Shown here piece after piece: positions 22,563-37,775 of a DNA stretch of 64,000 bases. Under the pieces are notes generated by a model. The model did not search any database and had not been told where the DNA came from. It worked only from the letters and a program-made list of their open reading frames with translations. Source of the DNA: an uncultured bacterium (GTDB lineage: Bacteria > Myxococcota_A > Polyangia > Polyangiales > Houyiibacteriaceae); the NCBI GenBank assembly GCA_938024995.1, contig CALJDU010000034.1:82046-146045 (forward strand), read 5' to 3'. The first letter of the stretch is position 1; the number at the start of each line of letters is the position of its first letter. The translations under genes were made by a program, and so were the position numbers.

Positions 22563-22618
22563 ACTCCGGCTTAGCACGCCGCGTTGACGCCGAGCGAGGC
22601 CGCGGCGACGATGCGACC

Positions 22619-23056
22619 ATGCCGCTTCGCGCCGCCCTCTTCGCGCTGACCCTCGTTTCTGCGTTTCGCTTCTGTGGGGATGACGAGCCGGTTCCCGTTC
22701 CCGAAGCCTCGGCTCCGACCGAGCCCGCGGCCGTCGCGCCGACCGAGCCAGAGCTTCCGCCCATTCCGCCTCCCGTCATCGAGACGGAGGGCACGATGTG
22801 CGAGCGCGCCTACGCCGGCGTCCTGCAGAAAATCGAGAACGTCCGGAACCACCCCGCCGCCGCCGCGATGATGCCGCATCTGCCGGAGCCGCCACCGCGT
22901 GAGCGCTTCTTGGAAGGGTGCGGGCTGTTGCCGGAGGAGATGCAGGAGTGTCTCCATCCCGACTACGCAGGCGCACACACGGCGGAGTGTCAGAGCCGTC
23001 GTGATCGCGTCGATGTGGAGGTGCTCCGTCGCGCGATGGCGATCGTCGCGCCATGA
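22619..23056 (+). CDS. Small exported protein at the head of the vWA/tubulin-like locus
   Basis: A 145-residue protein with an N-terminal hydrophobic signal (LRAALFALTLVSAFRFCGDDE); a cysteine follows, but the lipobox is poor (Phe at -1). A Pro/Glu/Val-rich linker of about 30 residues follows, then a domain of about 85 residues with conserved-looking cysteines (MCERAYAG, GCGLLP, ECLHPDY, ECQSRR). No family was recognised. Its TGA overlaps the ATG of the vWA gene (ATGA at 23053-23056), so the two are translationally coupled and the small protein is probably a periplasmic partner of the vWA protein. Confidence 0.6.
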   Translation: MPLRAALFALTLVSAFRFCGDDEPVPVPEASAPTEPAAVAPTEPELPPIPPPVIETEGTMCERAYAGVLQKIENVRNHPAAAAMMPHLPEPPPRERFLEGCGLLPEEMQECLHPDYAGAHTAECQSRRDRVDVEVLRRAMAIVAP

Positions 23057-25515
23057 ATCAGAAACTCGCGGCATACATATGCGTCTTGGCCGCGCTCTCG
23101 TTCGGCGCGCCGGCGATGGCCTCTGCGCAGGCCTCTTACGGTCAGTACCTGGTGATCATCGACGACTCGGGATCGATGGATCAATCCGATCCGCGACACC
23201 TCGTCGTGATGGCCTCTCTCGCGCTCGCGGCGGGACTGGAAGACGGTGACCAGGTGATGCTCGCGGGCCTCAACGAGCTCGCGCGTGGCGAGGTCGCGGG
23301 GCCGCGCTTCGTTTCGCCTCGCGTTTTGCTGGCGGGACGAGACGGCGCAGAGGGACCGCGCCCGCTCACCGGCCCGAGGCCCACGCGCCTGGGCGCGCAC
23401 CGCGGGAACACACCTTGTCGCGACGCGCTCGATCGCGCGAAGACGGTCTTGAACGCGGTCGCCTCCGCCGGTGCGCCGCAGACGCTCTTGTTGCTCACGG
23501 ATGGAGCGTGCTCTGGTTCCGTCGCCCGCGCGGCGGACTGGCTGCAGGACATACGAAGCGCCCGCGAGGATCGCTTTCGCTTTGTGCTCTTGATGCGAGA
23601 AGGGCGGGCGCGTCCGGATCGTCGCTTGCTTGAGTACGCCCGCCGAACTGGATGGGAAGGCGAAGCGTCCGTGAGCTTTGACGCGCGCGCTCTGCTCCGC
23701 GCCTTTGCCGATGTGCTCTCCTTCAGCCGCGGCCTTCGCTACGATGATGGCGGCCGCGTCGGTCTCGAGCGAACCTTCGCGGGTGCCCGCGCGGTCCGCT
23801 CGCTGGCGATCAGTGAGCAGCCGATCGAGCGCATCGGACTCGAACGCGTCGCGCGAAGCGGCGCGACCCCCATCACGGGCGGGCCAACGTTTCGGGAGCT
23901 GACACATGGGTGGAGCTTCCGCGTCGCGTCGGGCGCGCCGTCCGATGAGCCGTTCGCGGTCCGCTCAGGATCGCCAGGGGTCGAGGTGCTGGTGATCCCG
24001 GTGTACGGACGACTCACGATCGAGGCGGTCGTGGGTCGATGCAACGTCACCACCGCGCCGCCGTTCCCGTGGACCACCGAGCGCGCGGTCCGGGCCGGGC
24101 AGCCAGCCTGCGCGTGGGCGCGACTCGTCGGCGATGGCGGCGAGACGATCATGCCCGGGAGCTCTTTCGAGTTCGAGATGGAGCTGTGCGATGACTGGTC
24201 CTGCGAGACCGCCAGCGCGATGCAGCCGAGCGGCGACGGAACGTTCAACGCGCAGCTCGGTTCGTTTCCTGAAGGACGGCACGAGCGCGCGTTTCGAGCA
24301 CGCGGGGGCGCGCTGGCGTTTCCGGTCAAGGCGCGCCGCGGGTTCGCCTCGGTGACGTTCGGGATTCACCAGGTCACGCGACAGAGCGCCCCGAGCCTCC
24401 CCATCGAATCGGTAGAGCTGGGCGAGCTGCCGAAAGAGACGAGCGATGAGCTCGGCTTGGTCGTCCGTGGATCCTATCCCGCGGGGACCCGCGCGGCCTT
24501 GAGCTGCGACGCCTCAGATGGCGCGGCGTCGGCGTGTCTGCGTTGCGAGCTGGAAGGGCCCAGCTCGGTCACGTTGCAAGACCAGATGAACCTGCAGGTT
24601 CGCGTGACCGCCGATCCATTTTGTGACGCGGTGAGCGGGCAGGGCGACCGCGCGCTCCCCTTTACGGTCTCGCTGCGCATCGCGCCCGACTCCGCGGTGA
24701 TCGCGCCGTACGTTCTCCCGATCCGCGGCGCCCTGCGCTACGCCAACGCGGCACCCGTTTCGGTCGAGGTGGTTGGCGGAAGCGAAACGAGCGCCGCGGT
24801 AGTCGTGCCCGGACCGCTGGCGCAAAGTGACGTCAGCGCGGAGGTCGCGTTCGACAAGCGCGGGCTCAACGTCACCGCGGTCGCGCCTGGGACGCTGCGC
24901 GCGAACGCGGAGACGCGCACGGTCGAGGTGACGCTCAACGCCGAAGCGAGCGATTGCTGCAGCCCCGGGACCTACGAAGGTGTGCTCTCCCTCCGCACCG
25001 GCGAATCGGTCGGACACGTTCCGGTCTCGGTGACCGTGACGGATCCGGGGTGGTGGATCTGCCCGGGCAAGAAAATCTTGCGTTGGCTCATCGCGGTGCT
25101 GTTCACGTTGCTGCTTATCTGGGTCGTCCGCGGCTTCCTGACCCCGGCGAAGTTCCGCGACGGCTCGGTGTTGCTCTACGCGGAGTCACACAAAGCGCTC
25201 ACCTCGCTCCGTGATGGCGATGATGGGTGGCGACTCCTCAAGCGCTTCACCGAGACCCACCGCGGGTTTCGGAAAGACGCGACCCTGCACCTGGGCGGAC
25301 GCGAGGCGCCCTTGCCCTCGCTCAAGCGGCAGCCAGACGACGCGCAGATCGTGGCGCAATCGGGCGGAAGCGCGACCTTGTTTGTGACCGGTCCGACCAT
25401 CGAACGATTCACTGAGTCGAAGGGCTGGCACGAGCTGGAGCCAGGCGAGTATCCGGTTCCCAACAAGGTGACGCTTCGCCGGGGTGATGAGGTCTACGTG
25501 CAGTTTCGGCGATGA
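23053..25515 (+). CDS. Periplasmic vWA-domain protein with a single transmembrane helix
   Basis: An 820-residue protein. A signal peptide (residues about 1-26, ending ASAQA) is followed by a von Willebrand A domain with the MIDAS motif DDSGSMD at 37-43 and LLLLTDGACSG further on. Then come about 400 residues of beta-rich, Ig-like sequence, a transmembrane helix at about 675-697 (LIAVLFTLLLIWVVRGFL), and a cytoplasmic C-terminal domain of about 120 residues ending in GDEVYVQFRR. Metal-dependent vWA domains bind protein ligands, so this protein could link a periplasmic ligand to a cytoplasmic partner. It is coupled to the small gene before it and lies 143 bases upstream of the tubulin-like gene. 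I infer that it is a membrane component of that system. Confidence 0.82.
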   Translation: MNQKLAAYICVLAALSFGAPAMASAQASYGQYLVIIDDSGSMDQSDPRHLVVMASLALAAGLEDGDQVMLAGLNELARGEVAGPRFVSPRVLLAGRDGAEGPRPLTGPRPTRLGAHRGNTPCRDALDRAKTVLNAVASAGAPQTLLLLTDGACSGSVARAADWLQDIRSAREDRFRFVLLMREGRARPDRRLLEYARRTGWEGEASVSFDARALLRAFADVLSFSRGLRYDDGGRVGLERTFAGARAVRSLAISEQPIERIGLERVARSGATPITGGPTFRELTHGWSFRVASGAPSDEPFAVRSGSPGVEVLVIPVYGRLTIEAVVGRCNVTTAPPFPWTTERAVRAGQPACAWARLVGDGGETIMPGSSFEFEMELCDDWSCETASAMQPSGDGTFNAQLGSFPEGRHERAFRARGGALAFPVKARRGFASVTFGIHQVTRQSAPSLPIESVELGELPKETSDELGLVVRGSYPAGTRAALSCDASDGAASACLRCELEGPSSVTLQDQMNLQVRVTADPFCDAVSGQGDRALPFTVSLRIAPDSAVIAPYVLPIRGALRYANAAPVSVEVVGGSETSAAVVVPGPLAQSDVSAEVAFDKRGLNVTAVAPGTLRANAETRTVEVTLNAEASDCCSPGTYEGVLSLRTGESVGHVPVSVTVTDPGWWICPGKKILRWLIAVLFTLLLIWVVRGFLTPAKFRDGSVLLYAESHKALTSLRDGDDGWRLLKRFTETHRGFRKDATLHLGGREAPLPSLKRQPDDAQIVAQSGGSATLFVTGPTIERFTESKGWHELEPGEYPVPNKVTLRRGDEVYVQFRR

Positions 25516-25658
25516 AGCCGGTCACGTTTGCTCATCGCGATGCGCGGTTTGTGGGGCCACAGAAGGAGCCGCCTTCACGGCGACTCCGGCACCCGCAGGC
25601 GCCCCCTTCATAGTATTGTGCGCTCGCTCGCCCACGCGGGCCCAACCAAGGGAAAAAG

Positions 25659-28600
25659 ATGCCGATCAAGATCATGCCCGGAGAAGTCACGCCGACCCTT
25701 TTTGTCGGCTTGGGGGGCTCCGGCGGCAAAGCCATCGCGCGGATCGCTAAGCGCTTGCGCGAGACGCCGGAGTGGGAGCTCAAGTATCGCGACCTCGTTC
25801 GCTTCGTCGCGATCGATACCAACGCCGCCGACCTTGCCCGGCTCCGCAAAGGATCGCGGACCCAAGGCCACGTCGACAGCACGATCACGATCAGTGACTT
25901 CGACAAGGTGGAGTTCACCAAGCTCCGGCGCGGCGAGATGTTCGCGCAGGCCGACGACTACTTCACGCAGTGGGTCCACCCTTGGTACCGCTTCCGTGAA
26001 GAGAGCGGCGCCGGCGCCGGGCAGATTCGGATCGAGAGCCGCTTGGGCTTCTTCCGAAGCGTCGAGGTCGGAGAGGTCACTCGACAGCTCGGCGACCTCA
26101 TCGCGGGCATGCGCAACCACAGCCACGGGATGCGTCGACACGGCGCGCCTCTGCAGGTCTTCGTGTACTTCTCGACGGCGGGCGGAACCGGGAGCGGCGC
26201 GTTTCTCCCGATCGCGTATCTCCTGCGTGACTTGATCGGCGACAAGGCCGCGCGCCTCTTTGGGTTCGCGATTCTCCCAGACGCGTTCGAGTCCGTGGTC
26301 GGCATGAACCGCGACGGCACGCTCGCCAACGGGTACGCCGCGCTCAAAGAGTGCGAGCACTTGATGCGGCTCGACACACAAGGGCAGGGGGTCGAGGACG
26401 CGATCCCGTTCCACTACGACCCGCGTAACAAGGGCAAGCGCGAGGTGCGGCGGCGTCCGTACGACTTGCTCTATCTCGTCGACCGCCCTGAGAGTTTCAG
26501 CGTGGGCAACGTCGGCGAGGCGCTGAGCGACGCGACCTACGTTCAGATCTTCTCGCCCATCCTCGGTGATCAACAAGCGGACTACGACAACTACACCAAG
26601 GAGAGCCGCGCGCTCTTCCCGGAAGAGCTCGGGAGCGCCGGGTACACCGCGTTCTACGGCACGCTCGGCGCATCGGTGTTGGTTCTCCCGCGCCAGGATC
26701 TGCTCGCCTACTGCGCGCGGCGCTACGCGGCGACCTCGGTGCGCAAGTACCTCTTGCTCGACGATCCGATGCTGGTCAGCGAAGAGCAGCGCGAGCGCTT
26801 CAAGCAATTCGCGATCGACCGTGATGAGCTCGAGGCGCTCAGCCCCGAGGTGCGCGCGGAGCGGATCGACGAGTCGTTTCAGCAGAAGATGGATCTCCTC
26901 GCGGAACAGGATCGCGAAGGCGGCGTCTGGAAGCGCCTCCTCACGATTCGCGACACCGCGGCGCAGAAGCTCGCCGATACGCTCTCGGCGGTGGAGGAAG
27001 ATCTCCGCGGACAGGTCGCCTCCATTCGAGAGATCAGCGCGGACCGGATCCTCGACGACCAGTGGACCCCGGCGACGACGGTCAATGCGCTCAACCGTGA
27101 GGTCGCGGGGGCGCGTGAGCGAACGACCGCGCGGCTCGGTGTGCTCCTCAAGCAAGTCGAAGCGGGAGACTGGTGGAGCGACTTCTTGGCCCACGCGGGG
27201 CCCGACGCCGCGCCCGAGCTCAACCCGTATGAACAGCGCTACGTCTTGATTCACTTCCGCAAGGCTGCGGGCGCGCTCGCGAGCGAGAAGCTCGACGAGA
27301 TCGGAGATCAGGTCTCGCGTCTTCGAGGCGAAGCGGACCTCGGTCGTGAGTCCCGCTTCCGAAGCGAGATGGACGCGCACGCCGCCGAGATCAAGAAGAC
27401 CTACGGCGGATGGGACAAGCTCATCACGCGAAAAGACAAGGACTTCGAGGCGGCGCGGGATCGCGCGGTCGCGACCTTCAACGAGTACGTCGACAAGGCG
27501 CGCGCGCTCCTCATCAAATCTGCGCTCGTCGAGCTGCTCGGCTCGCTCGGGCGGGGCGCAGACGCGATGCGCGGCAGCTTCCGAAACATCGAGAGCTCCG
27601 CCGGTCGTCTCGCTACGGAGCTCGAAGAGAAAGCGCGGCGCTTCGAGTTCGATGGCGGCGCGGACGCCCGGAGCCAGAGCAATGACTACCTCCTCGACGT
27701 CGAGGTGCTTCAGCACCCCTCAGGACGAATGCGTTTCTGGAGCTGGTACTACGAGGACCAGGTTCGGACCCGCCCAGAGTCGGGAGACCAACAGCAGGTG
27801 CTGGACGCGGTCCGCGACGCGCTTCGTCCTCGCTTCGACGACCGCGGTCGCGCGATCAAGCGAACGGCGCGTGAGCTGATCGGGGACGTCGAGTCTTCGC
27901 TGGTTCGGGTCGCGGAGGCGTTCCTTGGAAAGCAGATCCTCGGAGACCCAACGTCCGACGATCCCTTCGAGAAGGCGGGGCTGCGTCTCGACGACGCGCT
28001 CGCGCTTGAGGCGCGCTATTACGCGCTCTTCACGGAGGACCCGCGTCGCGATACCCGCGCCGCGCTCAAACCACACGCTCCGCTCGCGCCGTCGACCATC
28101 GCCGGTGAGGAGAACTCGGCGCGCTACATGCGCCGCAAGCTCGACGCGGCGCTCGCGAAGGCGCAGCCGCTGACGCGCTACAGTCCGGAGTCGAAAACGA
28201 CCATCAAGCACGCCGACATGCTCCTCGTGGGGCTCGCGGATTCGCTCTCGCGCGGACCGCTCGGGAAGATGCTGAGCGAGGCGACCTACGGCGTCTCTTC
28301 CGATGTCATCGAGGACTGGCACGACGCGGATCGCGTGGTCTTCTATCGCTCGATCCTCGGTGTGCCGCTCTACTGCTTCCCGCACGTGAACACCGACATG
28401 CTTCACGCTTACCAGCGGTTTCAGGCGCAGCCGGACGCGGCGTGGCCGCTTCACATCGACACGAACTGGGAGCAGCTCCAAGACCTGGACCCCACAGCCG
28501 CGCGCCGCGCGATTTTGGCGCGCGGGGAACGAGAGCGCCTCGCCGTGGGAGCACTCGCGCTCGGGCTCGCGGAGGGCACCGTGATCGAAGAAGCGGGAGC

Positions 28601-28913
28601 GTATTCCTTGGTTCTCTCTGGGGCGAAGGTCGCCCTCGCGAACGGCCCGCTGGAGGCAGCGCGCGCGATGCTCGCGCTCGAGGAAGGAAAGCCGACGGTC
28701 TACGATCTCGCGGTGTCTCCGTTGATCGATTCGGCGCGCCACGCGACCGAGTCGCAGGAGATCCGCGGGACGCTGAACGAAACCGCGGCCTCGTGGTCAG
28801 AAGCGTGCGTCAAGCTCGAGCTGCTGGACAAACGCGACGCCGGGCAGGAGCGCCTCTATGCGCAGCTTCGGGAAGCGTCCGCGCACCTCAAACAGCTCGC
28901 CACGTTGCGCTAG
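25659..28913 (+). CDS. FtsZ/tubulin-superfamily protein, Tubulin_2 (FtsZl-2) type
   Basis: A 1084-residue protein. The N-terminal domain shows tubulin-superfamily GTPase motifs: a glycine loop LFVGLGGSGGKAIARIAKRL (T1-like, residues 14-33), FVAIDTNAADL (T2-like), and the diagnostic T4 signature STAGGTGSGAF with GGTGSG at 175-180, followed by a Rossmann-type strand LFGFAILPDAF. The remaining about 750 residues are mostly helical and charged, far longer than FtsZ. This matches the giant tubulin-like proteins of the FtsZl-2/Tubulin_2 family, which were predicted to act in membrane remodelling and are typically encoded near vWA proteins. The start ATG at 25659 has an AGGGA ribosome-binding site. 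It would bind GTP and may polymerise; no polymer-specific residue assignments are possible by eye. Confidence 0.85.
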   Translation: MPIKIMPGEVTPTLFVGLGGSGGKAIARIAKRLRETPEWELKYRDLVRFVAIDTNAADLARLRKGSRTQGHVDSTITISDFDKVEFTKLRRGEMFAQADDYFTQWVHPWYRFREESGAGAGQIRIESRLGFFRSVEVGEVTRQLGDLIAGMRNHSHGMRRHGAPLQVFVYFSTAGGTGSGAFLPIAYLLRDLIGDKAARLFGFAILPDAFESVVGMNRDGTLANGYAALKECEHLMRLDTQGQGVEDAIPFHYDPRNKGKREVRRRPYDLLYLVDRPESFSVGNVGEALSDATYVQIFSPILGDQQADYDNYTKESRALFPEELGSAGYTAFYGTLGASVLVLPRQDLLAYCARRYAATSVRKYLLLDDPMLVSEEQRERFKQFAIDRDELEALSPEVRAERIDESFQQKMDLLAEQDREGGVWKRLLTIRDTAAQKLADTLSAVEEDLRGQVASIREISADRILDDQWTPATTVNALNREVAGARERTTARLGVLLKQVEAGDWWSDFLAHAGPDAAPELNPYEQRYVLIHFRKAAGALASEKLDEIGDQVSRLRGEADLGRESRFRSEMDAHAAEIKKTYGGWDKLITRKDKDFEAARDRAVATFNEYVDKARALLIKSALVELLGSLGRGADAMRGSFRNIESSAGRLATELEEKARRFEFDGGADARSQSNDYLLDVEVLQHPSGRMRFWSWYYEDQVRTRPESGDQQQVLDAVRDALRPRFDDRGRAIKRTARELIGDVESSLVRVAEAFLGKQILGDPTSDDPFEKAGLRLDDALALEARYYALFTEDPRRDTRAALKPHAPLAPSTIAGEENSARYMRRKLDAALAKAQPLTRYSPESKTTIKHADMLLVGLADSLSRGPLGKMLSEATYGVSSDVIEDWHDADRVVFYRSILGVPLYCFPHVNTDMLHAYQRFQAQPDAAWPLHIDTNWEQLQDLDPTAARRAILARGERERLAVGALALGLAEGTVIEEAGAYSLVLSGAKVALANGPLEAARAMLALEEGKPTVYDLAVSPLIDSARHATESQEIRGTLNETAASWSEACVKLELLDKRDAGQERLYAQLREASAHLKQLATLR

Positions 28914-28928
28914 AAATACTCGTTCCCC

Positions 28929-31385
28929 GTGAGCAGCGCGAGCGCGATCGTGGTGGGGTTGGGAGCGTTCGGCGAAGACGTCGGGCGTCGCCTCGCTCGC
29001 GAACGCGCGTCGCTCCCTGAGCGTGAGCCGATCACGCTCGTGCTCGCGGGCGGCGCGATCGATCCGCGAGCACTCGCCGATGAGGTCGCGAATCGCGCGC
29101 GCGCGATTCTCAGTCACGCGCGGCAACGTGTTCGCCGGGACGCGCCCGGCGGCGACGGGCAAACGCAGCTCCACATCTTCGTCCTGGGTCACCTCGGCGA
29201 AGAGTCGGTGCGCGGTCAGATTCAGCCAGCCCTCCGCGCGATCGAGGCGGAGCTGTTCGCGCGCTTCGCGCCGATCTTCGAGCGCTATCGGACCCACGAG
29301 CAGCGGAACCTGGTCGTGTTGCCGCTCCTCGCGATGCCGCACCCCGCGTCGCATGAGCGCGGAACCGTGATCTCCAAGTCTGTTCGTCAGCTCGCGGCAG
29401 CCGTCGCGGAGACCCCTCCGCGCGAGCGCGCGGTCCCGCAGATCTACATCATCGAAGACGTCGCGGAGTTCTCGGTCTTGTCCGAGGACGAGCTCGGCGC
29501 GTGCGTTCGCAACTTCGCGACGCTGATGCTCGAGTCGCTCGACGCGGTCCCGCAAGTGAACCTGCTCCTGTACGGACGGCAGCCGAACGAACCGCTCGCC
29601 ACGTTTATCTGCGCCGTCGCGGAGCTCCCGCGCGCGAAGCTGAGGCGCTACGCGGTGAACCGCGTGGCGCTTGAGCTGCTCGACGCGGTTCATGACGCGC
29701 CGCGCGACACCCTTCAGCTGTCTGAGCTCGATCTCTTGGAGGAGGTCGAGCTCGCCGCGCTGACGCCTGAGGACGAGTCCGAGGATGACGTTCGCGAGCT
29801 GCTCTCGCGCTACGCGCCAGACCTGACGCCGACCGCGCCGCCGCGTTGGTTCGAGCGCGGCGAGTCGATCGCTGCGCGCTATGGACCCGACCCCGGTGAC
29901 CCTTCGAGCGATGACGCCGAGCCGCCCGCGGCTCCGCCGGTCGGTTTCGCGCTGGCGAAAATGGAGGCCGTCGAGGCGTCTTGGCGCGTGCTCCAGCGCA
30001 GGCGCTTTGACGACGTCATCGCGGAGGAGCGGAGCGCGATTGAGAAGGCCCGCGACGGTCTCCTGGAGCGGGTTCGTTCTCGCGTGGACCGCGCGATGTT
30101 TGAGTCTCTCGCGCCGGAGTCGTTTCGCGAGGCCGCGGAGCTCGTGACCAAGATGCGGCGCGGCGTGTCCGAGCGTTTGGAGGAAGCGGTCCGGCTGCGC
30201 GATGAGACCCAGCCGGCGCCGCCGCCCTCGTTCGACGCCTTTCGCTCTTCTCACGCCGCGCTCTTGGATGAAGCGAGGCGAAAGCTCGACCTCCCGCGCG
30301 TCACCTTCTACGGAGCGCTCATCATCGCCGCCGCGGTCGCGATCCTGCCCACGTTGCTCTGGGCTCTCGCGGACCTGCGCGGCGTTCCCCAGGACGGTCC
30401 GTGGTGGGAACCGCTCCTACGTGAACGCGGACAATGGACGGCGGCGTTTCTGGGGCTCTCGCTCTTCGCGATCCCGCTCGGGGTTCGCTTCAAGAATCAC
30501 GTCGACAAGGTGCTCGCGAGCTGGCGGCAGATGTGGAGCGACCTCGCGGACACCATGCACGCCGAGACCGACTCCGTGCAGGCCTACTTCGCGACGCGAC
30601 TGCAGCTGGCGCGTCGCGTCGCGCGCGTCGACGCGTTGCTGGCGGTGGAGTCGAGCCTCGCGCGCGATGAAGAGCGGCTCACGCTTTTGGATCGCGCGGT
30701 CCGCCGTGCACGCGCGACACTGCTCGAGGAGAACCAGCGCCTCGGCGTCTCGCGAAAGGACGGGCGCGACGATCTCACGGGGCTGACGGCGGTAGGACAC
30801 GAGAGCTTGGTCGAGCCGCTGATCGCGGAGCGCGCGTTGAGCTCGCTTCGAGACGCGCTGCCAGAGGAGAGCCGTGAGGCCCGGATCCGCGATCTCCTCG
30901 ACAAGCTCGCGCGCGAACATGACTACCGTTCGCGCTGGCGGGAGGAGGTCCCGTTCACCGCGATGGAGACGCTGCGCGCCGCGGCGGAAGGTCACGCGAC
31001 CCCGCTCGCGGAGTGGGACCCCTTCAATGACCCAACGAGCGCGGACGGCACCGCCGATCGGATCGCGCGCTTCGTTCGGGGTCAGGCGCGCTCGCTCAAG
31101 GTCGCGCTCAACTTCTCCGGGTACGAGAGCCGCGACCCGACCGGGATCACGCTCGCGATGCGCGGGGAAGCGATCGTGCCGGCGGCGGCGCTCTCGCGGG
31201 TGTCGCGTTTGCTTCAAGACGAGGGCGCGGCGGGCCGACAAATCCCGCTTCACGAGGGAAGCGATCCCGACCGCGCGTACTACGTCGTCGCGATCGCCGA
31301 CATCGCGACGTCCGCGATTCCGTCGCTCTCCAGTGGGCTTCAGGGCGAGCTCCTCTTCGAGATCGAGCGCGGGAGCGAACGGTGA
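28929..31385 (+). CDS. Membrane-anchored protein with a degenerate tubulin-like N-terminal domain
   Basis: An 818-residue protein starting with GTG at 28929, 15 bases after the tubulin-like gene. Its N terminus, AIVVGLGAFGEDVGRRLARE (residues 6-25), parallels the glycine loop of its neighbour. A later strand-loop-strand (LHIFVLGHLGEESVRGQ then NLVVLPLLAMP) occupies the place of the GGTGSG region but lacks that motif. Two transmembrane helices lie at about 460-482 and 503-520, with about 300 residues of charged, helical sequence after them. I interpret it as a paralogous, probably non-hydrolysing tubulin-like subunit tethered to the membrane; this is inference and the similarity is weak. Its TGA overlaps the GTG of the next gene (31382-31385), showing co-translation with the helicase-like protein. 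Confidence 0.6.
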   Translation: MSSASAIVVGLGAFGEDVGRRLARERASLPEREPITLVLAGGAIDPRALADEVANRARAILSHARQRVRRDAPGGDGQTQLHIFVLGHLGEESVRGQIQPALRAIEAELFARFAPIFERYRTHEQRNLVVLPLLAMPHPASHERGTVISKSVRQLAAAVAETPPRERAVPQIYIIEDVAEFSVLSEDELGACVRNFATLMLESLDAVPQVNLLLYGRQPNEPLATFICAVAELPRAKLRRYAVNRVALELLDAVHDAPRDTLQLSELDLLEEVELAALTPEDESEDDVRELLSRYAPDLTPTAPPRWFERGESIAARYGPDPGDPSSDDAEPPAAPPVGFALAKMEAVEASWRVLQRRRFDDVIAEERSAIEKARDGLLERVRSRVDRAMFESLAPESFREAAELVTKMRRGVSERLEEAVRLRDETQPAPPPSFDAFRSSHAALLDEARRKLDLPRVTFYGALIIAAAVAILPTLLWALADLRGVPQDGPWWEPLLRERGQWTAAFLGLSLFAIPLGVRFKNHVDKVLASWRQMWSDLADTMHAETDSVQAYFATRLQLARRVARVDALLAVESSLARDEERLTLLDRAVRRARATLLEENQRLGVSRKDGRDDLTGLTAVGHESLVEPLIAERALSSLRDALPEESREARIRDLLDKLAREHDYRSRWREEVPFTAMETLRAAAEGHATPLAEWDPFNDPTSADGTADRIARFVRGQARSLKVALNFSGYESRDPTGITLAMRGEAIVPAAALSRVSRLLQDEGAAGRQIPLHEGSDPDRAYYVVAIADIATSAIPSLSSGLQGELLFEIERGSER

Positions 31386-34300
31386 TCGAGAGCGTCGTGT
31401 GCATGCTCGCGCAGCTCGGGATTGAGCTCCGGTCGATGGGCGTGATGGTCGCGGCGGTGGTCGCGACGGTCGTCTTCTTCATCTTCCTGTTGGTGCGCCG
31501 GATGGTCGGGACGCGGCGAATGAAGGAAGACGCGCCGCTGGGAACCGCGCCGTGGGTCTACGCGGGCGGGCTCGCGATCGCGGTCTACACCTTCGCGCGC
31601 GTGATCGATCCACTGCTCGCCTCCCGCTTGGCCCGGCCCTCGGACATTCCCGTCGAGCGGTTCGAGCGGATCTCGTGGTTCGAGTGGCAGCTCCTCGGCG
31701 ATAGCTTCGCGCGAGCGCTCCTCCCGCTCGCGGATCAACTCGCGGTCGCGATTTTGGTGCACCTCGTTCTCTGGTCGCTGACCATCGCGTTCTTGCGGAC
31801 CGTCTTGGTCTTTCTGCATCCTCACGCGCGGTACTCGACCCCGCCAAACGAGCTGCCGTGGTTCTACCGCTACACCGGCGCGGTCACCGCGAGGCGCCCG
31901 GACGACCGCTTTCGGAGCTGGATGCGTCGCGTCGTGCTGAACGCGATCCCGCTCCTCTATTTGGTTGGTTGGCTGATGGCGTCCAGCGCGGCAGACGCAG
32001 GGGGGCAGACGCACTCCATCGCCTGCGGCGGAGCACCTCAGATCGAGTCGCTCACACCCGCGATGGATGAAGAGCTCGCGCGCGCGCTCGACGGCCTCAG
32101 CGGTCAACCACCCGACTCGACGCCGCCGTCCGCGAGGGCGGCAGAGGAGGCTCGCGAATTCGTCGATAGCTTCGCGGTGCACGGCGTCGGGAGCGCGCTC
32201 TTGCCAAGCGGGGTCGGTCCCGCGCCCGGAACGTTCGTCTTGATCGCGCTCTTTCTCCTGCTGATGACCGCGCACCTCCTCGCGGAAGGTCGCCCTCCGG
32301 CGAGCGACGAAGAGCAGGAAGAAGAAGAGACCGACGACGAAGAGGAGGAGCACGCGCCTCACCCAGCGCCGCTGGCGAAACTGGGCGACGCGATACGCGA
32401 GCGCATCCCATCCGCGCAGCTCGCCGCGCTCACGCGGGAACTCTCGTTTGCCGGAGAGCGCGCGTCGTTCCCGGAGGCGATGAGCCCGCTCGTTCGTGAG
32501 CTCTTCGATGCCCTGGCTGGCGGAGAGGAGCTCTACACACACCAAGCCGAGCTCTTGACGCATCTCTGCGATGTCTGGCGGATGGAATCGCTCGTCTCGC
32601 GCGGTGAGACGCCGCGCCTTGATGAAGAGGCGCTCGCGTCGCCGATCAAACGGAGCGACGCTTCTCCCCACGCCTTGCTCGCGACGGCGGAGGGCTCCGG
32701 TCGCACGACCGCCGCGATGCTCGCGGTGATGCATCTGCACTTGGACCGCGGCGCGACGAGCTTGGTCGTGCTGCGAGAGCGGAGCGACGCGCGCGAGTGG
32801 GCCGAGAACCTCCGGCGGGCGCTGGTCTCCTCATCGACGCGCTGGAACATCGAGGTCGCGGTCGCCGGGGATGATCTCGCCGCATCGCTCCTCGCCGGGA
32901 AGACGCCCGCGGTCGTCGTGGCGGCGCTCGATGAGCTCGAGCAGTCGGTATTGGGCGACGCCCGCACCGATGAGTTCTTCCAGCGCTTGGGCTTGATCGT
33001 GGCCGATGATCTCGACGGCTTCTTTGGCGTCGCCGAGATGCATCTCCATCTCGTGATGCGCCGTCTCTGGGCGCTGCTCGATCATCGGCACGACGCCCCG
33101 TACCCCCCCGTGTTGATCGCGACGCTCGCGCCAGGACCCGACGTCGACGTTTGGGCGCGCCACATCCTCGCGGCGCCGCTTCGGGTGTTCGACGAGGACG
33201 CTGCGCCGCGGTCGGAGCGGGTCATCGTGCGACAAGCGGACCTCGTTGACGGGCGAGGTCAGTCGCTCTCGCTTCGGGCCATCGCCGAGGCGTGTTCCGA
33301 AGCGAAGATCCCGTGGCACTTGCGCTTCGCTGGAGACGTCGCGCGACGTCGTCGCCCCGCGGAGCTGGAGCTGTCGCGGCTCCGTCGGCACCACGTCGAC
33401 GATCCCAAGTTCGCGGAAGTGGTCCTGATCGAGGGGCCTTTCTTTGAGGTCCGACGCGAGGTCTCGCGCTTGTGCCACGCGGGTCTCGCGGTCGAGGGGC
33501 CCGTCGTTCTCGTGATGGATCCACCGGCGGAAGAAGAGGTCGCCTTTCATGAAGAAGCGGTCGACGCGGAAGCGCGCGAGCTCTTGGCGTCCCTCCCGCG
33601 TTCGCTCCCGCTCGCCGAACCGGATCTGCTCCGTCAGCGACACTTCGACCGCGCCCTCGGCCGGGAGCAAGACGTGGAGGCGCTGCAGCGTCGCTTCGGG
33701 CGGGACTTCGTCGATCGAACCCTCGATCACCTGGACGAGCTCGGGAAGCTGAGCTTCCGAAAGGTGCACTACTTCGATCCGCGCGCCGACGACGCCCGCT
33801 CTCGATCATTGGTACGCGCGGTCGGGGAAGAGGGCATCGGCGAGCCCATCGATTCGCGCTGCGTTTCGGAAGCGGCCGATTGCATCGATCTCGTCGACAC
33901 CGGGACGTCTGATGTCGTCGGCCGCTTGGATCGCGCCACCGCGATCGCGCATCTCCCGCCCGGCGCGGTCACCTTGTTGCCGACGGGCCGCTTCGTCATC
34001 CAAGCCGAGGAGAACGGCGCGCTCCCCGCCGAGCACGCGCCCGAGCCTCGGAAGACCGTGAGCCAACGCTTCGTGAGCGTCGAGCTCCCGGCGGACGTGG
34101 AGTGGTCCGAACGGCAGCTCGGTGGACGCCCAGTGCGGGTCGCGGTGAGTCGTGGAGTCGTCACCGAGACGCTTCTCGGCATGCGAACTTACGACCGCCT
34201 CGCGCAACTGGTGGAGCAGCGCGCCTACGAAGCGCCGCTCCGCGCGGAGTACGGGACGCAGCTCTGTTTGGTTCGCTGCGGGCTGCCGCGTGAGAACGCT

Positions 34301-35329
34301 TTTGCGCCGCTGGGCCGGGAAGGGCTGGCGGCGCTCGTCGCGGCGCTCCGTCTCGCGCTTCCCTCGTATCTGCGGGGAGGGCGCGGGCTCATCGACGTCG
34401 CGTCGGTGCCGCTCGAGGTGGGTCACGAAGCCTCCGCGCCCTACCTGGTCTTCTTTGATCGCACGCCTGGCGCGAGCGGGTTCGCGAACCATCTCTTTCA
34501 GCGCGGTTTGAAGGACGCCTTTCGCCTCGCGCGTCTCGTGTTGGAGCGACTGGTCGGCGAAGAGCGCGACCGATTGCGCAGCCTCTACTCGTTCGCGGAA
34601 CAAGAGTCGCTCGACGCGCCGGAGGCGCTCCGCTTTCTCGACTACGCGCTTGACCCGGTCCTCGTCCGGCGCGCCGCGCGGCGACTTGGGCCGCGGAGCG
34701 CGTACACGGAGGGCGAGGGCACGGCGGGCGACCTCGGCCGCCTCTGGGTGTCGAAGACCGGGCGGACGGACGACCTGGTGTGGACGCGTCACGAGTTCTT
34801 CGCGCCCGCGCCGCTGCCGCCGCATACTCAGGAGGCGGGCCAGGTGTTCTTCGACTTCGCCGTCGAGCGGCGCGCGATCCTTCAGTCGATCCGCGCGGCC
34901 GCGGACGCGGGAGTTCCCCCGCGTCCGGTCGCGCCGCGTGACGCGAAGGAATGGTCCGCGACACACGCTCCGCTCGTGTCGACCGATGCGCTCACGCCCT
35001 TCGTCGCGACGCTCCAAGAGCTGACCGGTGACGGTTATGTGGACGCTGTGCTCCGCTTGGTCGCCGCGATCCCGACGTCGCAGAAGACGCTCTCCGCCAC
35101 GCAACGCGCACCGCTCGCGGTGCTCTGTCGCCGCGTTGCCGACGCCGACGCGAAGGTAGTCTTGGCGGTCGCGCTCCTTCGCGGAGCAGCGAACCCGGAG
35201 GTCACCGTCGACGACGAAGGCGTGCTCCTGACCGTCACCATCGAGAGCGGGCGAGAGACGTTCGACCTCGCGCTCGGTCCCGCGCTGCACATCGCGACGC
35301 CACGGGGCGACCTCGCGGTTTTGAGCTGA
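31382..35329 (+). CDS. Membrane-embedded, degenerate YprA/MrfA/Hrq1-like SF2 helicase homologue
   Basis: A 1315-residue protein. About five hydrophobic helices span residues 18-300 (for example 19-38, 58-75, 115-145, 184-200 and 283-301), followed by a very acidic linker (308-324). The rest follows the plan of DUF1998-containing helicases: a motif-I region with GSGRTT (438-443) instead of GSGKT, motif II DDLD (542-545) instead of DExH, a motif-III-like ATLAPG (580-585), a winged-helix-like part (about 760-800), the DRATAIAHLPPGAVTLLPTGRF segment typical before DUF1998 (850-871), and a DUF1998-like FFDRTPGASGFANHLF (1024-1039). The motif VI arginine element (QRxGRxGR) appears as SRLCHAGL (695-702). 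ATP-driven unwinding therefore looks unlikely. It starts with GTG overlapping the previous gene. Confidence 0.7.
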   Translation: MIESVVCMLAQLGIELRSMGVMVAAVVATVVFFIFLLVRRMVGTRRMKEDAPLGTAPWVYAGGLAIAVYTFARVIDPLLASRLARPSDIPVERFERISWFEWQLLGDSFARALLPLADQLAVAILVHLVLWSLTIAFLRTVLVFLHPHARYSTPPNELPWFYRYTGAVTARRPDDRFRSWMRRVVLNAIPLLYLVGWLMASSAADAGGQTHSIACGGAPQIESLTPAMDEELARALDGLSGQPPDSTPPSARAAEEAREFVDSFAVHGVGSALLPSGVGPAPGTFVLIALFLLLMTAHLLAEGRPPASDEEQEEEETDDEEEEHAPHPAPLAKLGDAIRERIPSAQLAALTRELSFAGERASFPEAMSPLVRELFDALAGGEELYTHQAELLTHLCDVWRMESLVSRGETPRLDEEALASPIKRSDASPHALLATAEGSGRTTAAMLAVMHLHLDRGATSLVVLRERSDAREWAENLRRALVSSSTRWNIEVAVAGDDLAASLLAGKTPAVVVAALDELEQSVLGDARTDEFFQRLGLIVADDLDGFFGVAEMHLHLVMRRLWALLDHRHDAPYPPVLIATLAPGPDVDVWARHILAAPLRVFDEDAAPRSERVIVRQADLVDGRGQSLSLRAIAEACSEAKIPWHLRFAGDVARRRRPAELELSRLRRHHVDDPKFAEVVLIEGPFFEVRREVSRLCHAGLAVEGPVVLVMDPPAEEEVAFHEEAVDAEARELLASLPRSLPLAEPDLLRQRHFDRALGREQDVEALQRRFGRDFVDRTLDHLDELGKLSFRKVHYFDPRADDARSRSLVRAVGEEGIGEPIDSRCVSEAADCIDLVDTGTSDVVGRLDRATAIAHLPPGAVTLLPTGRFVIQAEENGALPAEHAPEPRKTVSQRFVSVELPADVEWSERQLGGRPVRVAVSRGVVTETLLGMRTYDRLAQLVEQRAYEAPLRAEYGTQLCLVRCGLPRENAFAPLGREGLAALVAALRLALPSYLRGGRGLIDVASVPLEVGHEASAPYLVFFDRTPGASGFANHLFQRGLKDAFRLARLVLERLVGEERDRLRSLYSFAEQESLDAPEALRFLDYALDPVLVRRAARRLGPRSAYTEGEGTAGDLGRLWVSKTGRTDDLVWTRHEFFAPAPLPPHTQEAGQVFFDFAVERRAILQSIRAAADAGVPPRPVAPRDAKEWSATHAPLVSTDALTPFVATLQELTGDGYVDAVLRLVAAIPTSQKTLSATQRAPLAVLCRRVADADAKVVLAVALLRGAANPEVTVDDEGVLLTVTIESGRETFDLALGPALHIATPRGDLAVLS

Positions 35330-35446
35330 CCAGACCCGTTGTAGCGGGTGTGCCCGGCATGCTGCTTTTGGATGTGTTTCGATGCTGCTGAAAGCATCGT
35401 GCTTTCTCGTGCTCGTGAAGCGTACGTTTTTACTCGGTTTTCTTCA

Positions 35447-35506
35447 TGGTCTGCGTTTTGCAAAACAAGTCCCTCATCAGGTTCAGAAACTCTTACTGAA
35501 CCCTGA
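35447..35506 (+). promoter_or_regulatory. Possible sigma54 promoter and leader hairpin before the second vWA gene
   Basis: The 236-base gap 35330-35565 is A/T-rich for this genome. TGGTCTGCGTTTTGCA at 35447-35462 has the GG/GC spacing and the TTGCA of a sigma54 -12/-24 promoter but only a partial -24 element. Just downstream, 35477-35506 folds into a 10-bp stem (TCAGGTTCAG with CTGAACCCTGA, one bulged base). Two smaller hairpins lie at 35334-35349 (ACCCG/CGGGT) and 35380-35399 (CGATGCT/AGCATCG) and may end the upstream transcript. The vWA gene has an AAGAAGGAA ribosome-binding site. The promoter call is tentative. Confidence 0.35.
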
Positions 35507-35565
35507 CGGGCCACCGCGCGGTTCTGTGGCTCTTTGTTCTTGTTCGCACTCAAGAAGGAAACGCC

Positions 35566-36987
35566 ATGTTCAAGAAGTCTCCCCGCCGTCCCCAAACCCG
35601 TCGATCCCGTCGTCGTACCCAGACCCTCCTCGCGGCGTTCGCCTGCGTCGGGCTGGCGTGCGGCGGGAGCGTCCTGCTCAACTCCGCCGAGCCGACAGAA
35701 GAAGAGACAACCGCGCGCACGTCGGAGGCAGGCTCCGCGAGCGAAACGGCACCGAGTGCCGCGTTCCAGGCGCCTGGGATCGAGGGGGAGCTCGCGTTGT
35801 CGCAGAGCGAAGTGTTCGGCGCGGAACAGATCTTCGCGCGTTTACGCTTGCGCGGGACGGGCGCAGAAGACGTCTCCATGCCGACCGCGATTTCGGTGGT
35901 CTTGGACGTCTCCGGATCGATGAGCGGAGGGAAGATCGCGCAGGCGAAGCGTTCGCTTCTGTCTTTGGTCGAGCGCATGGGAGACCAGGACCTGATCGCC
36001 GTGACCACCTACAGCGACGCGGCGGTGAGCGTGGTCCCGATGAGCCCCGTCCGGTCGGTCCGCGCGGCCTTTCCTCAGATCGTCGCCGGCATCACCGTGC
36101 GCGGCGGCACGAACATCCCGTCCGGCTTGAACGCGGGAGGCGACGCGCTCGCTACCGTCGGGGCCAACTTCGCGCGGCGCATCGTGCTCTTGTCAGACGG
36201 TGTCGACGGCTCGGGTCAAGCGCCATCGACGGTCGCGCGTGCGGTCCGCGCGCGCTCACGCGGCGCGGCCATCTCGTCTCTGGGGATCGGTACCGACTAC
36301 GACGAGAACTTCCTCATGCAGATCGCGGACGCGGGGAACGGGAACTACGAGTTCTTGGCGACCCCGAGCCTGCTCGCCTCGTTCCTCGACAAAGAGCTGG
36401 CCTCGGCGCGCACGACCGCCGCGCGCGCATTGAACGTCGCGCTCTCGCTCCCGACAGGCGTCACCATCGCTCGCGTCTACGGCGCGGAGCACGTTGGAAA
36501 CACGCTGTCCCTGGGGTCGCTCTCGAGCGGAGAGGATCGGCAGGTCGTGGTCGCGCTTCGCGCGGAGAAGCCGGATGGGGCGATCGGGGCACAGCTGAGC
36601 TTCCTCGGACCGGACGGAGACACGCGCTCGGCCGCGGCCTCGATTCCGCTGGCGACCGCTACGTCGGTGGAGGCGGCGGTCGCCTCGCGCGACCTCGTCG
36701 TTCACGCCGAGACGCACGCCGTCGCGATCGACGCGCAGCAGCGCGAGGCCATTACGCAGTGGCGGAGCGGGAACGCGCGCGCCGCCGCGGCGCAGGCGAT
36801 GGCGAACGCGGCGGCGCTGGAGCAGCTCGCGGAAGCGGCGCCCACCCCTGCGCTGCGCCGTCAGATCGCGGAGTACCAGCGAGACGCGACGACCTTTGGT
36901 CAGGTCAGCGCGATGTCGTCTCGAGGCGCCGCGTACGGCCTTAGCTCGAACGCGAGCCGTCGTCGTCGCGCGCGGAGCGCACGTTGA
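35566..36987 (+). CDS. vWA-domain lipoprotein
   Basis: A 473-residue protein. The N terminus is unusually basic (MFKKSPRRPQTRRSRRR) before a hydrophobic stretch and a lipobox-like GLACGG (Cys32). A Glu/Thr/Ala linker precedes a complete von Willebrand A domain with MIDAS residues DVSGSMS (Asp114), RGGTNIPSG (Thr182) and LLSDG (Asp211). It is followed by a beta-rich segment and an Ala-rich helical C terminus. The arrangement resembles batA/YfbK-type vWA proteins. It lies 236 bases after the helicase-like gene and overlaps the following membrane-protein gene, so those last two genes form their own transcription unit. A link to the tubulin-like system is inferred from position and the shared vWA theme. 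Confidence 0.8.
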   Translation: MFKKSPRRPQTRRSRRRTQTLLAAFACVGLACGGSVLLNSAEPTEEETTARTSEAGSASETAPSAAFQAPGIEGELALSQSEVFGAEQIFARLRLRGTGAEDVSMPTAISVVLDVSGSMSGGKIAQAKRSLLSLVERMGDQDLIAVTTYSDAAVSVVPMSPVRSVRAAFPQIVAGITVRGGTNIPSGLNAGGDALATVGANFARRIVLLSDGVDGSGQAPSTVARAVRARSRGAAISSLGIGTDYDENFLMQIADAGNGNYEFLATPSLLASFLDKELASARTTAARALNVALSLPTGVTIARVYGAEHVGNTLSLGSLSSGEDRQVVVALRAEKPDGAIGAQLSFLGPDGDTRSAAASIPLATATSVEAAVASRDLVVHAETHAVAIDAQQREAITQWRSGNARAAAAQAMANAAALEQLAEAAPTPALRRQIAEYQRDATTFGQVSAMSSRGAAYGLSSNASRRRRARSAR

Positions 36988-37775
36988 GCGCCGCGCTTCG
37001 GGCGATCCCGCTCTTGTTGTTGCCGGCGCTGGTCGTGCACGTGACCGACGCGCTCTCGCCGATGGTGGCGGGGCTCGTGATCGTCACGCTCTTCGTCGTC
37101 GCGACGGTCGCGCTCGAAGGCCTGGAGCCCACCTCGCTCATCCTCGGCGCCGCTGCCGGGGTGTGCGCCAGCACAGGAATGGGCGCGGCGACCGCGATAG
37201 GTCTCTCCTTGGTCTTCGCGACTCGCTCGTCCCGCGCGCGGTCGCTCGGGTCGGCGCTGTTGCTCTCGGGCTTCGGGTGCTTCGTGTCTGCGGCGGCGGT
37301 GACGTTGGTCGTGCGGTTCAGTCATGCGCCGACGCTGCCGCGCTGGACCGCGCTCGCGATGGCCTCGTTGATGCTCCTCGGGCCCCTCGTGTGGATCGTG
37401 GATGACCGGATCGCGGTCTCGCTCCGTCGGAGCGCGCGCGCGGTGGGCGGGGTCAGCCGCCGCGCCTTGCTCCGCGGTCTCGCGCTGCGCCGTCGTGAAC
37501 AGCCGCTCCTCCCGCGCGCCTCGCGGCGCCAGCTCGAGAGCGCCTGGAGATCTTTTGCGCGGCTCGGGGAAGCGGCGGCGGACAATGACAAGCTCGGGGC
37601 GCAGCTCGCGCTTCACGCGCGGGCGCTCACCAACGCGCACCGCGCCGCGATGGACGTCTCCGCCTATCGGGCGGGCATCGGCGAGAGCGGGTTCACCATC
37701 GATGGTGATCTCTGCGCAGAGGCGAGCGCGCTGCGCGAGGTGACCCAAGCCGCGATGACCCAAGCCGCGATGTAG
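36984..37775 (+). CDS. Small polytopic membrane protein with helical C-terminal domain
   Basis: A 263-residue protein starting with TTG at 36984, overlapping the vWA stop codon by four bases (TTGA). About four to five transmembrane helices occupy residues 1-150 (RAIPLLLLPALVVHV, PMVAGLVIVTLFVVATVAL, SLILGAAAGVCASTGMG, LGSALLLSGFGCFVSAAAV, TALAMASLMLLGPLVWIV). They are followed by a basic, helical cytoplasmic part of about 110 residues. The last residues repeat (MTQAAMTQAAM), reflecting a 15-bp tandem duplication at the DNA level. No family was recognised. The overlap suggests it is a membrane partner of the vWA lipoprotein. Confidence 0.65.
   Translation: MSAALRAIPLLLLPALVVHVTDALSPMVAGLVIVTLFVVATVALEGLEPTSLILGAAAGVCASTGMGAATAIGLSLVFATRSSRARSLGSALLLSGFGCFVSAAAVTLVVRFSHAPTLPRWTALAMASLMLLGPLVWIVDDRIAVSLRRSARAVGGVSRRALLRGLALRRREQPLLPRASRRQLESAWRSFARLGEAAADNDKLGAQLALHARALTNAHRAAMDVSAYRAGIGESGFTIDGDLCAEASALREVTQAAMTQAAM

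Follow-up and report, generated by a model that had tools for sequence, protein, structure and literature searches.

A conserved four-gene FtsZl1-type locus of Myxococcota encoding a putative membrane-anchored pseudo-tubulin and a helicase-derived membrane protein

Gene layout and conservation of the locus

Seven open reading frames (ORFs), all on the plus strand, were confirmed at positions 22619 to 37775 of a 64,000-nucleotide stretch of an uncultured Polyangiales genome (contig CALJDU010000034.1 of assembly GCA_938024995.1; hereafter, the window), at the coordinates given in an earlier reading of the letters alone (hereafter, the original prediction). Of these, the four central ones are genuine genes that form a conserved unit. 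In order, they encode a vWA protein with a transmembrane (TM) helix (vWA-TM), a tubulin-like GTPase (TUB), a putative degenerate tubulin-like protein (TUB2), and a helicase-like membrane protein (HEL), and they make up a four-gene version of the FtsZl1-vWA type that is kept at deep divergence (Table 1). Overlaps of 4 bases are present at 23053-23056, 31382-31385, and 36984-36987, and TUB and TUB2 are 15 bases apart (28914-28928), all as originally predicted. The vWA-TM and TUB genes are separated by 143 bases, and HEL is separated from the following vWA lipoprotein gene by 236 AT-richer bases with hairpin and T-run sequences. This layout suggests that members of the locus are coexpressed.

Profiles of each protein were mapped onto two sets of loci, 40 surrounding TUB homologues in Myxococcota and 79 taken from named genomes, and gene order was counted in the 27 named loci whose flanks reached at least 3 kb upstream and at least 8 kb downstream. 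The original prediction of a multigene membrane system around a Tubulin_2 GTPase, with vWA, second tubulin-like, and degenerate helicase partners, was borne out across the Myxococcota for the four central genes: in the comparison of PF13809 gene neighborhoods that it had suggested, vWA-TM, TUB, TUB2, and HEL were found in the same order and on the same strand in 19 of the 27 loci, with TUB2 present in 25 and HEL in 24. The set is thus not confined to one genome, the outcome that the original prediction had named as its refutation. Examples of the complete set include Sandaracinus (L084), Enhygromyxa salina (L094), Archangium (L129 and L139), and Polyangium (L144, L146, and L147), as well as Thermoanaerobaculum (L119), a metagenome-assembled genome labeled Acidobacteriota. 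Lujinxingia vulgaris (L116) contains TUB, TUB2, and HEL, and vWA-TM was not detected at its locus.

A phylum-wide search found HEL (E ≤1e-12) in 20 of 269 genomes, and all 20 belong to the list of TUB-positive genomes (61 of 284); the naive hypergeometric probability of this co-occurrence is 2.6e-15, a value that ignores shared ancestry. In a Plesiocystis-type genome (G255; contigs C237 and C137, loci L050 and L091), HEL does not share a contig with vWA-TM, TUB, and TUB2, and TUB2 is followed by a different gene encoding 511 amino acids (aa); TUB and HEL are thus both retained despite being unlinked in this genome. Trees of TUB, TUB2, and HEL from 32 loci were congruent (r of 0.91, 0.91, and 0.96), with 19 to 22 of 29 splits in common.

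The originally proposed extent of seven genes was rejected, because the outer genes are not conserved. No homologue of the small ORF, which had been taken for an exported member of the system, was found in any fetched locus, and an overlapping antisense ORF (22571-23074) is equally plausible, with codon-position GC not separating the two. The vWA lipoprotein and polytopic protein genes, likewise proposed as members, lie behind the 236-base gap and were found at this position by profile search only in the closest relative (L044/L084). The closest named relatives of the window are Sandaracinus-type Myxococcota, with 72% identity in TUB.

Table 1. Coordinates of the seven ORFs in the window
Feature	Positions	Strand	Evidence and remarks
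Small ORF (145 aa)	22619..23056	+	Overlaps vWA-TM gene by 4 bases; no Pfam match; outside conserved core
vWA-TM	23053..25515	+	Subthreshold Pfam vWA; MIDAS; one TM helix; conserved next to TUB
TUB, FtsZl1-type GTPase	25659..28913	+	PF13809, E 2.5e-52
TUB2, putative degenerate membrane-anchored tubulin-like protein	28929..31385	+	Profile-profile comparison; AlphaFold2/Foldseek; TM segments
HEL, membrane-anchored MrfA/DUF1998-derived helicase-like protein	31382..35329	+	Profile and Foldseek match to MrfA 6znp
vWA lipoprotein-like gene	35566..36987	+	Pfam VWA, E 2e-15; lineage-specific accessory at most
Polytopic protein, 5 TM	36984..37775	+	Overlaps vWA lipoprotein gene by 4 bases; lineage-specific

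Domains, folds, and motifs of the core proteins

TUB is the only PF13809 (Tubulin_2) gene in the 6.8-Mb assembly, and a canonical FtsZ is encoded elsewhere in the same assembly. The Pfam match (178.7 bits against a cutoff of 27; E 2.5e-52) covers residues 14 to 361 of a 1084-aa protein with no TM segment, and the more than 700 aa beyond the domain belong to no Pfam family. The T4 GTP-binding loop is AGGTGSG in the window and (A/C)GGTGSG in 40 of 40 aligned loci, across which the T1 loop, GG.G, is also conserved. FtsZl1 proteins have been defined by a PF13809-type domain with a long C-terminal part containing an extended coiled coil and an alpha-helical domain, whereas FtsZl2 proteins are without the coiled coil and have a C-terminal alpha/beta region of about 300 aa and no conserved neighbors (PMC2875224). 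On account of its length, its PF13809 match, and its conserved neighbors, among them the adjoining vWA gene that is characteristic of FtsZl1, TUB was assigned to FtsZl1, and the original FtsZl2 label was rejected.

TUB2 comprises a putative degenerate tubulin-like head, a helical region, a conserved mid-protein TM hairpin at about residues 460 to 520, and a C-terminal domain. Sequence-library searches of Pfam and the PDB gave no match. A profile built from 58 N-terminal regions was aligned with that of TUB (hhalign) at an E value of 3.7e-5 (score, 46.8; probability, 71%) over a span that begins at the T1 region and reaches the conserved domain end, while four controls (reversed TUB2, HEL, vWA, and the TUB2 C terminus) scored no higher than 18.7. 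The AlphaFold2 model (predicted local distance difference test [pLDDT] score, 84) matched FtsZ, TubZ, and tubulins, including gamma-tubulin, in Foldseek, with probabilities of mostly 0.84 to 1.0 and E values of 0.01 to 0.2; for FtsZ and gamma-tubulin the probabilities were about 0.96 to 1.0, with E values above 0.001. Because these E values are no better than that, the assignment leans on profile and structure jointly, which together give weak to moderate indication that TUB2 has a tubulin-like fold of the FtsZ-tubulin superfamily. No T4 glycine loop was found in TUB2: the window protein has LGHLGEES, and GGTG is absent at that place in 28 homologues. In four loci of family f27 and Lujinxingia (L060, L061, L080, and L116), TUB2 is about 1300 to 1400 aa long, exceeding that of the window clade by about 500 aa, and its TM pair is shifted to about residues 890 to 990; the extra part in L116 has no Pfam match.

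HEL begins with a multi-TM base at about residues 1 to 300 (six predicted TM segments in the window protein). Pfam matches were to DEAD (E 7e-6) and, below the cutoff, to MZB, and the HEL profile matched MrfA/YprA, a DUF1998 helicase of superfamily 2 (SF2; PDB 6znp), with an E value of 2e-20. The AlphaFold2 model of residues 281 to 1315 (pLDDT score, 84) has the MrfA crystal structures as its best Foldseek match (6znp; E 1.1e-30; TMt, 0.63; 845 columns). While the SF2 helicase-like region is shared with MrfA/YprA, HEL differs from it in the multi-TM base, in the noncanonical Walker A and motif II of most members, and in having no conserved MZB cysteines. Walker A is GSGRTT in the window clade, with arginine in place of lysine, and motif II of the window protein is DDLD. 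A canonical GK(T/S) is kept in a minority of loci (L060, L061, L080, L116, L119, L124, L144, and others), and the full DELH box is found only in L061, the other loci having DD or a different pair. Walker A cannot be aligned and motif II cannot be recognized in several loci, among them L055, L058, L101, and L109, and no zinc-binding cysteine cluster is conserved in the MZB/C-terminal region of HEL. We infer from these motifs that HEL is probably a former helicase whose fold remained part of the complex after the motor was lost, with residual ATP binding possible.

The vWA-TM protein is predicted to consist of an N-terminal hydrophobic, signal-like segment, an extracytoplasmic vWA domain, a beta-rich region, a TM helix at about residues 679 to 697, and a cytosolic tail of about 125 aa. 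The metal ion-dependent adhesion site (MIDAS) is DDSGSM in the window, and DxSxS is retained in essentially all vWA-containing homologues; homologues of vWA-TM adjoin TUB in most loci. The tail carries a conserved RGF(Y/R) motif. An FHA identity of the tail was considered and rejected, as no similarity was detectable (hhalign score, 11.5). Some loci contain two or three vWA-TM paralogues with a common TM-and-tail part and divergent outer regions, a pattern consistent with receptors that dock through the same cytosolic tail; tandem paralogues of this type lie at 880-7444 of L109 and 708-5345 of L129.

Flanking genes, distant relatives, and published systems

In one clade (L104, L105, L108, L109, L111, L128, and Archangium), PP2C-type genes are located upstream of the module, in part together with a vWA-FHA gene. 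A Ser/Thr kinase cluster gene directly follows HEL, or overlaps its end, in seven loci (L126, L127, L129, L130, L133, L136, and L139). These neighbors fit the kinase link reported for FtsZl1. The identified genes flanking the Myxococcota modules are mostly metabolic.

The layout may extend beyond the Myxococcota. On a plasmid of Azospirillum ramasamyi, the genes after TUB encode a 710-aa TM protein, a 1118-aa HEL relative with N-terminal TM segments (E of 1.4e-5 by hmmsearch and 7e-6 by hhalign), and a vWA protein. In Alteribacter (Bacillota), four genes of comparable size and TM placement make up a look-alike layout; its HEL profile signal is weak (E 0.0098), and HEL is not claimed there. TUB2 was undetectable by profile in both, with just length and TM placement in agreement. 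No significant TUB2 or HEL match was obtained with these profiles in the loci of Microcystis, Ignavibacteria, Symbiobacteriaceae, or Thermus. A mobile or viral origin of the module was rejected: no relative was found in viral contigs, HEL was absent from the plasmids searched, and the PF13809 relatives there were only distant.

Membrane remodeling was predicted for FtsZl1-vWA systems in 2010 by Makarova and Koonin, one of whose reviewers favored transport or signaling instead (PMC2875224); the original prediction attached this proposal to FtsZl2, but it was published for FtsZl1. The window module resembles those systems in the PF13809 domain and GTP loop of TUB, the vWA TM neighbor, and the kinases in sibling loci. 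Plesiocystis was included in their sequence set, and most other associated families were described without recognizable domains; the main text mentions neither a TM pseudo-tubulin nor a membrane protein derived from MrfA, and the supplementary family list may hold the TUB2 and HEL families without domain names (PMC2875224). Kaur et al. in 2020 placed tubulin-vWA-GTPase sets among predicted conflict systems (PMC7159879). Their DO-GTPase/GAP1-N2 systems share with the module a tubulin domain with a C-terminal extension, coiled coil or helical in those systems, an extracellular vWA domain with TM segments, and the kinase/PP2C/vWA theme, and in Firmicutes they contain two tubulin genes, whereas the second tubulin of the window is without the GTP loop and appears membrane anchored. 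The module further differs in its helicase-derived component and in containing no DO-GTPase or GAP1 gene (no Pfam match among its proteins). The original prediction had called both the helicase component and the doubled tubulins unusual; this holds for the membrane pseudo-tubulin and the helicase derivative, but doubled tubulins as such have been published in Firmicutes (PMC7159879). No description of a pseudo-tubulin anchored in the membrane, or of a helicase derivative embedded in it, was found in the literature, of which the supplementary list of PMC2875224 was not part.

The only experimental data on a Tubulin_2 protein in the literature found are for a distant relative, Sll0445 of Synechocystis, which cofractionates with pilus assembly and photosystem proteins and whose mutant is impaired in phototaxis (PMC9880817). 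The sll0445-sll0447 cluster is similar in placing a Tubulin_2 protein in an envelope-linked gene cluster; it differs in its FtsA-like and DivIC-like partners, and no vWA, TUB2, or HEL protein was reported in it.

Proposed role and alternative explanations

We rank first, at close to an even chance, the possibility that the four-gene system forms, on the cytoplasmic side of the inner membrane, a tubulin platform that responds to signals and organizes the envelope or a surface machine, with a defense function second and a serious rival. The platform is favored because the gene order is conserved, HEL and TUB co-occur, the trees are congruent, and the TUB loop is kept in every aligned locus; because TUB2 is loop-less with a TM hairpin, HEL has an MrfA fold with decayed motifs, and kinase, PP2C, and vWA-FHA genes flank the module; and because of the pilus and phototaxis link of Sll0445 (PMC9880817) and the membrane-remodeling prediction for FtsZl1 (PMC2875224). 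The vWA protein would bind an envelope or extracellular ligand via its metal site and signal through its tail, while TUB would assemble in a GTP-dependent manner beneath the membrane. TUB2 could serve as membrane anchor and as nucleator or cap for TUB via tubulin-tubulin contact, and HEL, instead of working as a processive helicase, could be a scaffold or a conformational switch in the membrane, with Ser/Thr phosphorylation as a possible input where the kinase/PP2C/FHA set flanks the module. The assembly would then remodel the inner membrane or position an envelope-spanning surface machine, e.g., a pilus or secretion apparatus.

Several points weigh against such a platform. The Synechocystis relative is distant, its FtsA-like and DivIC-like neighbors being different proteins. 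No pilus, secretion, or motility genes were identified in the scanned flanks of the window. Filament formation by FtsZl1 was not found shown in the literature; Makarova and Koonin were unable to locate the T6-H7 elements (PMC2875224). For related tubulin-vWA systems, moreover, a conflict role has been proposed (PMC7159879) and a link to CRISPR loci drawn (PMC10910872).

It is possible, and short of probable, that the locus represents a class of its own among bacterial membrane cytoskeletons, combining an active tubulin-like GTPase and a membrane-anchored dead tubulin with a motorless DNA-repair-type helicase as structural or signaling subunit of the inner membrane and with an outward vWA sensor. 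FtsZl1/Tubulin_2 proteins occur widely among bacteria and archaea, and no description of their mechanism was found in the literature; the present analysis gives FtsZl1 a conserved minimal gene set, folds for some of its parts, testable claims (that TUB2 anchors TUB and that HEL is a helicase turned scaffold), and named carrier strains. A helicase that gave up its SF2 motor motifs within a membrane protein and took on a structural role would, if true, be an unusual case.

The foremost alternative, which we consider unlikely, is a membrane-based conflict system (antiphage or abortive) in which HEL would sense foreign nucleic acid and the tubulin and TM proteins would perturb the membrane as effectors. 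DUF1998 helicase relatives occur in the defense systems DISARM and Druantia. Tubulin and vWA-TM genes make up about half of the predicted GAP1-N2 conflict neighborhoods in Firmicutes and Actinobacteria, and Kaur et al. found such systems enriched in multicellular bacteria (PMC7159879); vWA systems that include kinase, phosphatase, TM, and tubulin proteins were found by Altae-Tran et al. in association with CRISPR loci (PMC10910872). In keeping with this, a Csm6-HEPN-like gene directly follows the look-alike vWA/tubulin/TM/HEL-like operon of Alteribacter natronophilus (L157, 19356-20849), and a megaplasmid of Thermus oshimai (L163, 5703-19029) encodes TROVE-vWA, vWA-TM, and Tubulin_2 proteins and a 677-aa protein followed by BrxL, an exonuclease, and a RecQ-type helicase. 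However, the seven window proteins had no PADLOC match other than a weak, chance-level AAA-Csx3 match for the lipoprotein. Among 100 flanking genes, each of the 25 PADLOC families listed matched 8 proteins, the number matched by the generic protein kinase family, and the listed flank matches appear to be generic kinase matches, the other flanks being mostly metabolic. Nor does the distribution of the module favor a conflict role, with no relative in viral contigs, HEL absent from the plasmids searched, and, unlike in fast-shuffling defense loci, part trees in agreement and members kept at deep divergence. The decayed motor motifs of HEL and the absence of DO-GTPase/GAP1 from the window proteins also argue against it.

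It is improbable that HEL keeps a nucleotide-dependent handling of nucleic acids that lets the complex transport or anchor DNA or RNA at the membrane, as in uptake, export, or chromosome tethering. The MrfA-like fold across nearly the entire modeled region, the membrane anchor, the Walker A lysine of some clades, and the full DELH of L061 are what such a role would predict; against them stand the arginine of the window Walker A, the replacement of the DExx glutamate in nearly all members, motifs beyond recognition in several loci (such as L055, L058, L101, and L109), the missing MZB zinc-binding cysteine cluster, and flanks in which no competence or nuclease gene was seen conserved beside the module. 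That the system consists of TUB and vWA-TM only, with TUB2 and HEL as incidental neighbors kept by gene order, is improbable as well: although Plesiocystis pacifica has vWA-TM, TUB, and TUB2 together with HEL not adjacent, and many non-myxobacterial FtsZl1 loci are without recognizable TUB2 and HEL, the Plesiocystis-type genome retains HEL elsewhere (G255, C137), strong HEL matches are confined to TUB-positive genomes, the trees agree, and a HEL relative is found in the same layout in Azospirillum.

Downstream of the locus, at 40428-42677 and 42795-45020 of the window, two adjacent genes encode large proteins, each with three matches to the scavenger receptor cysteine-rich (SRCR) domain, best known from animals, and with DUF4215 repeats.

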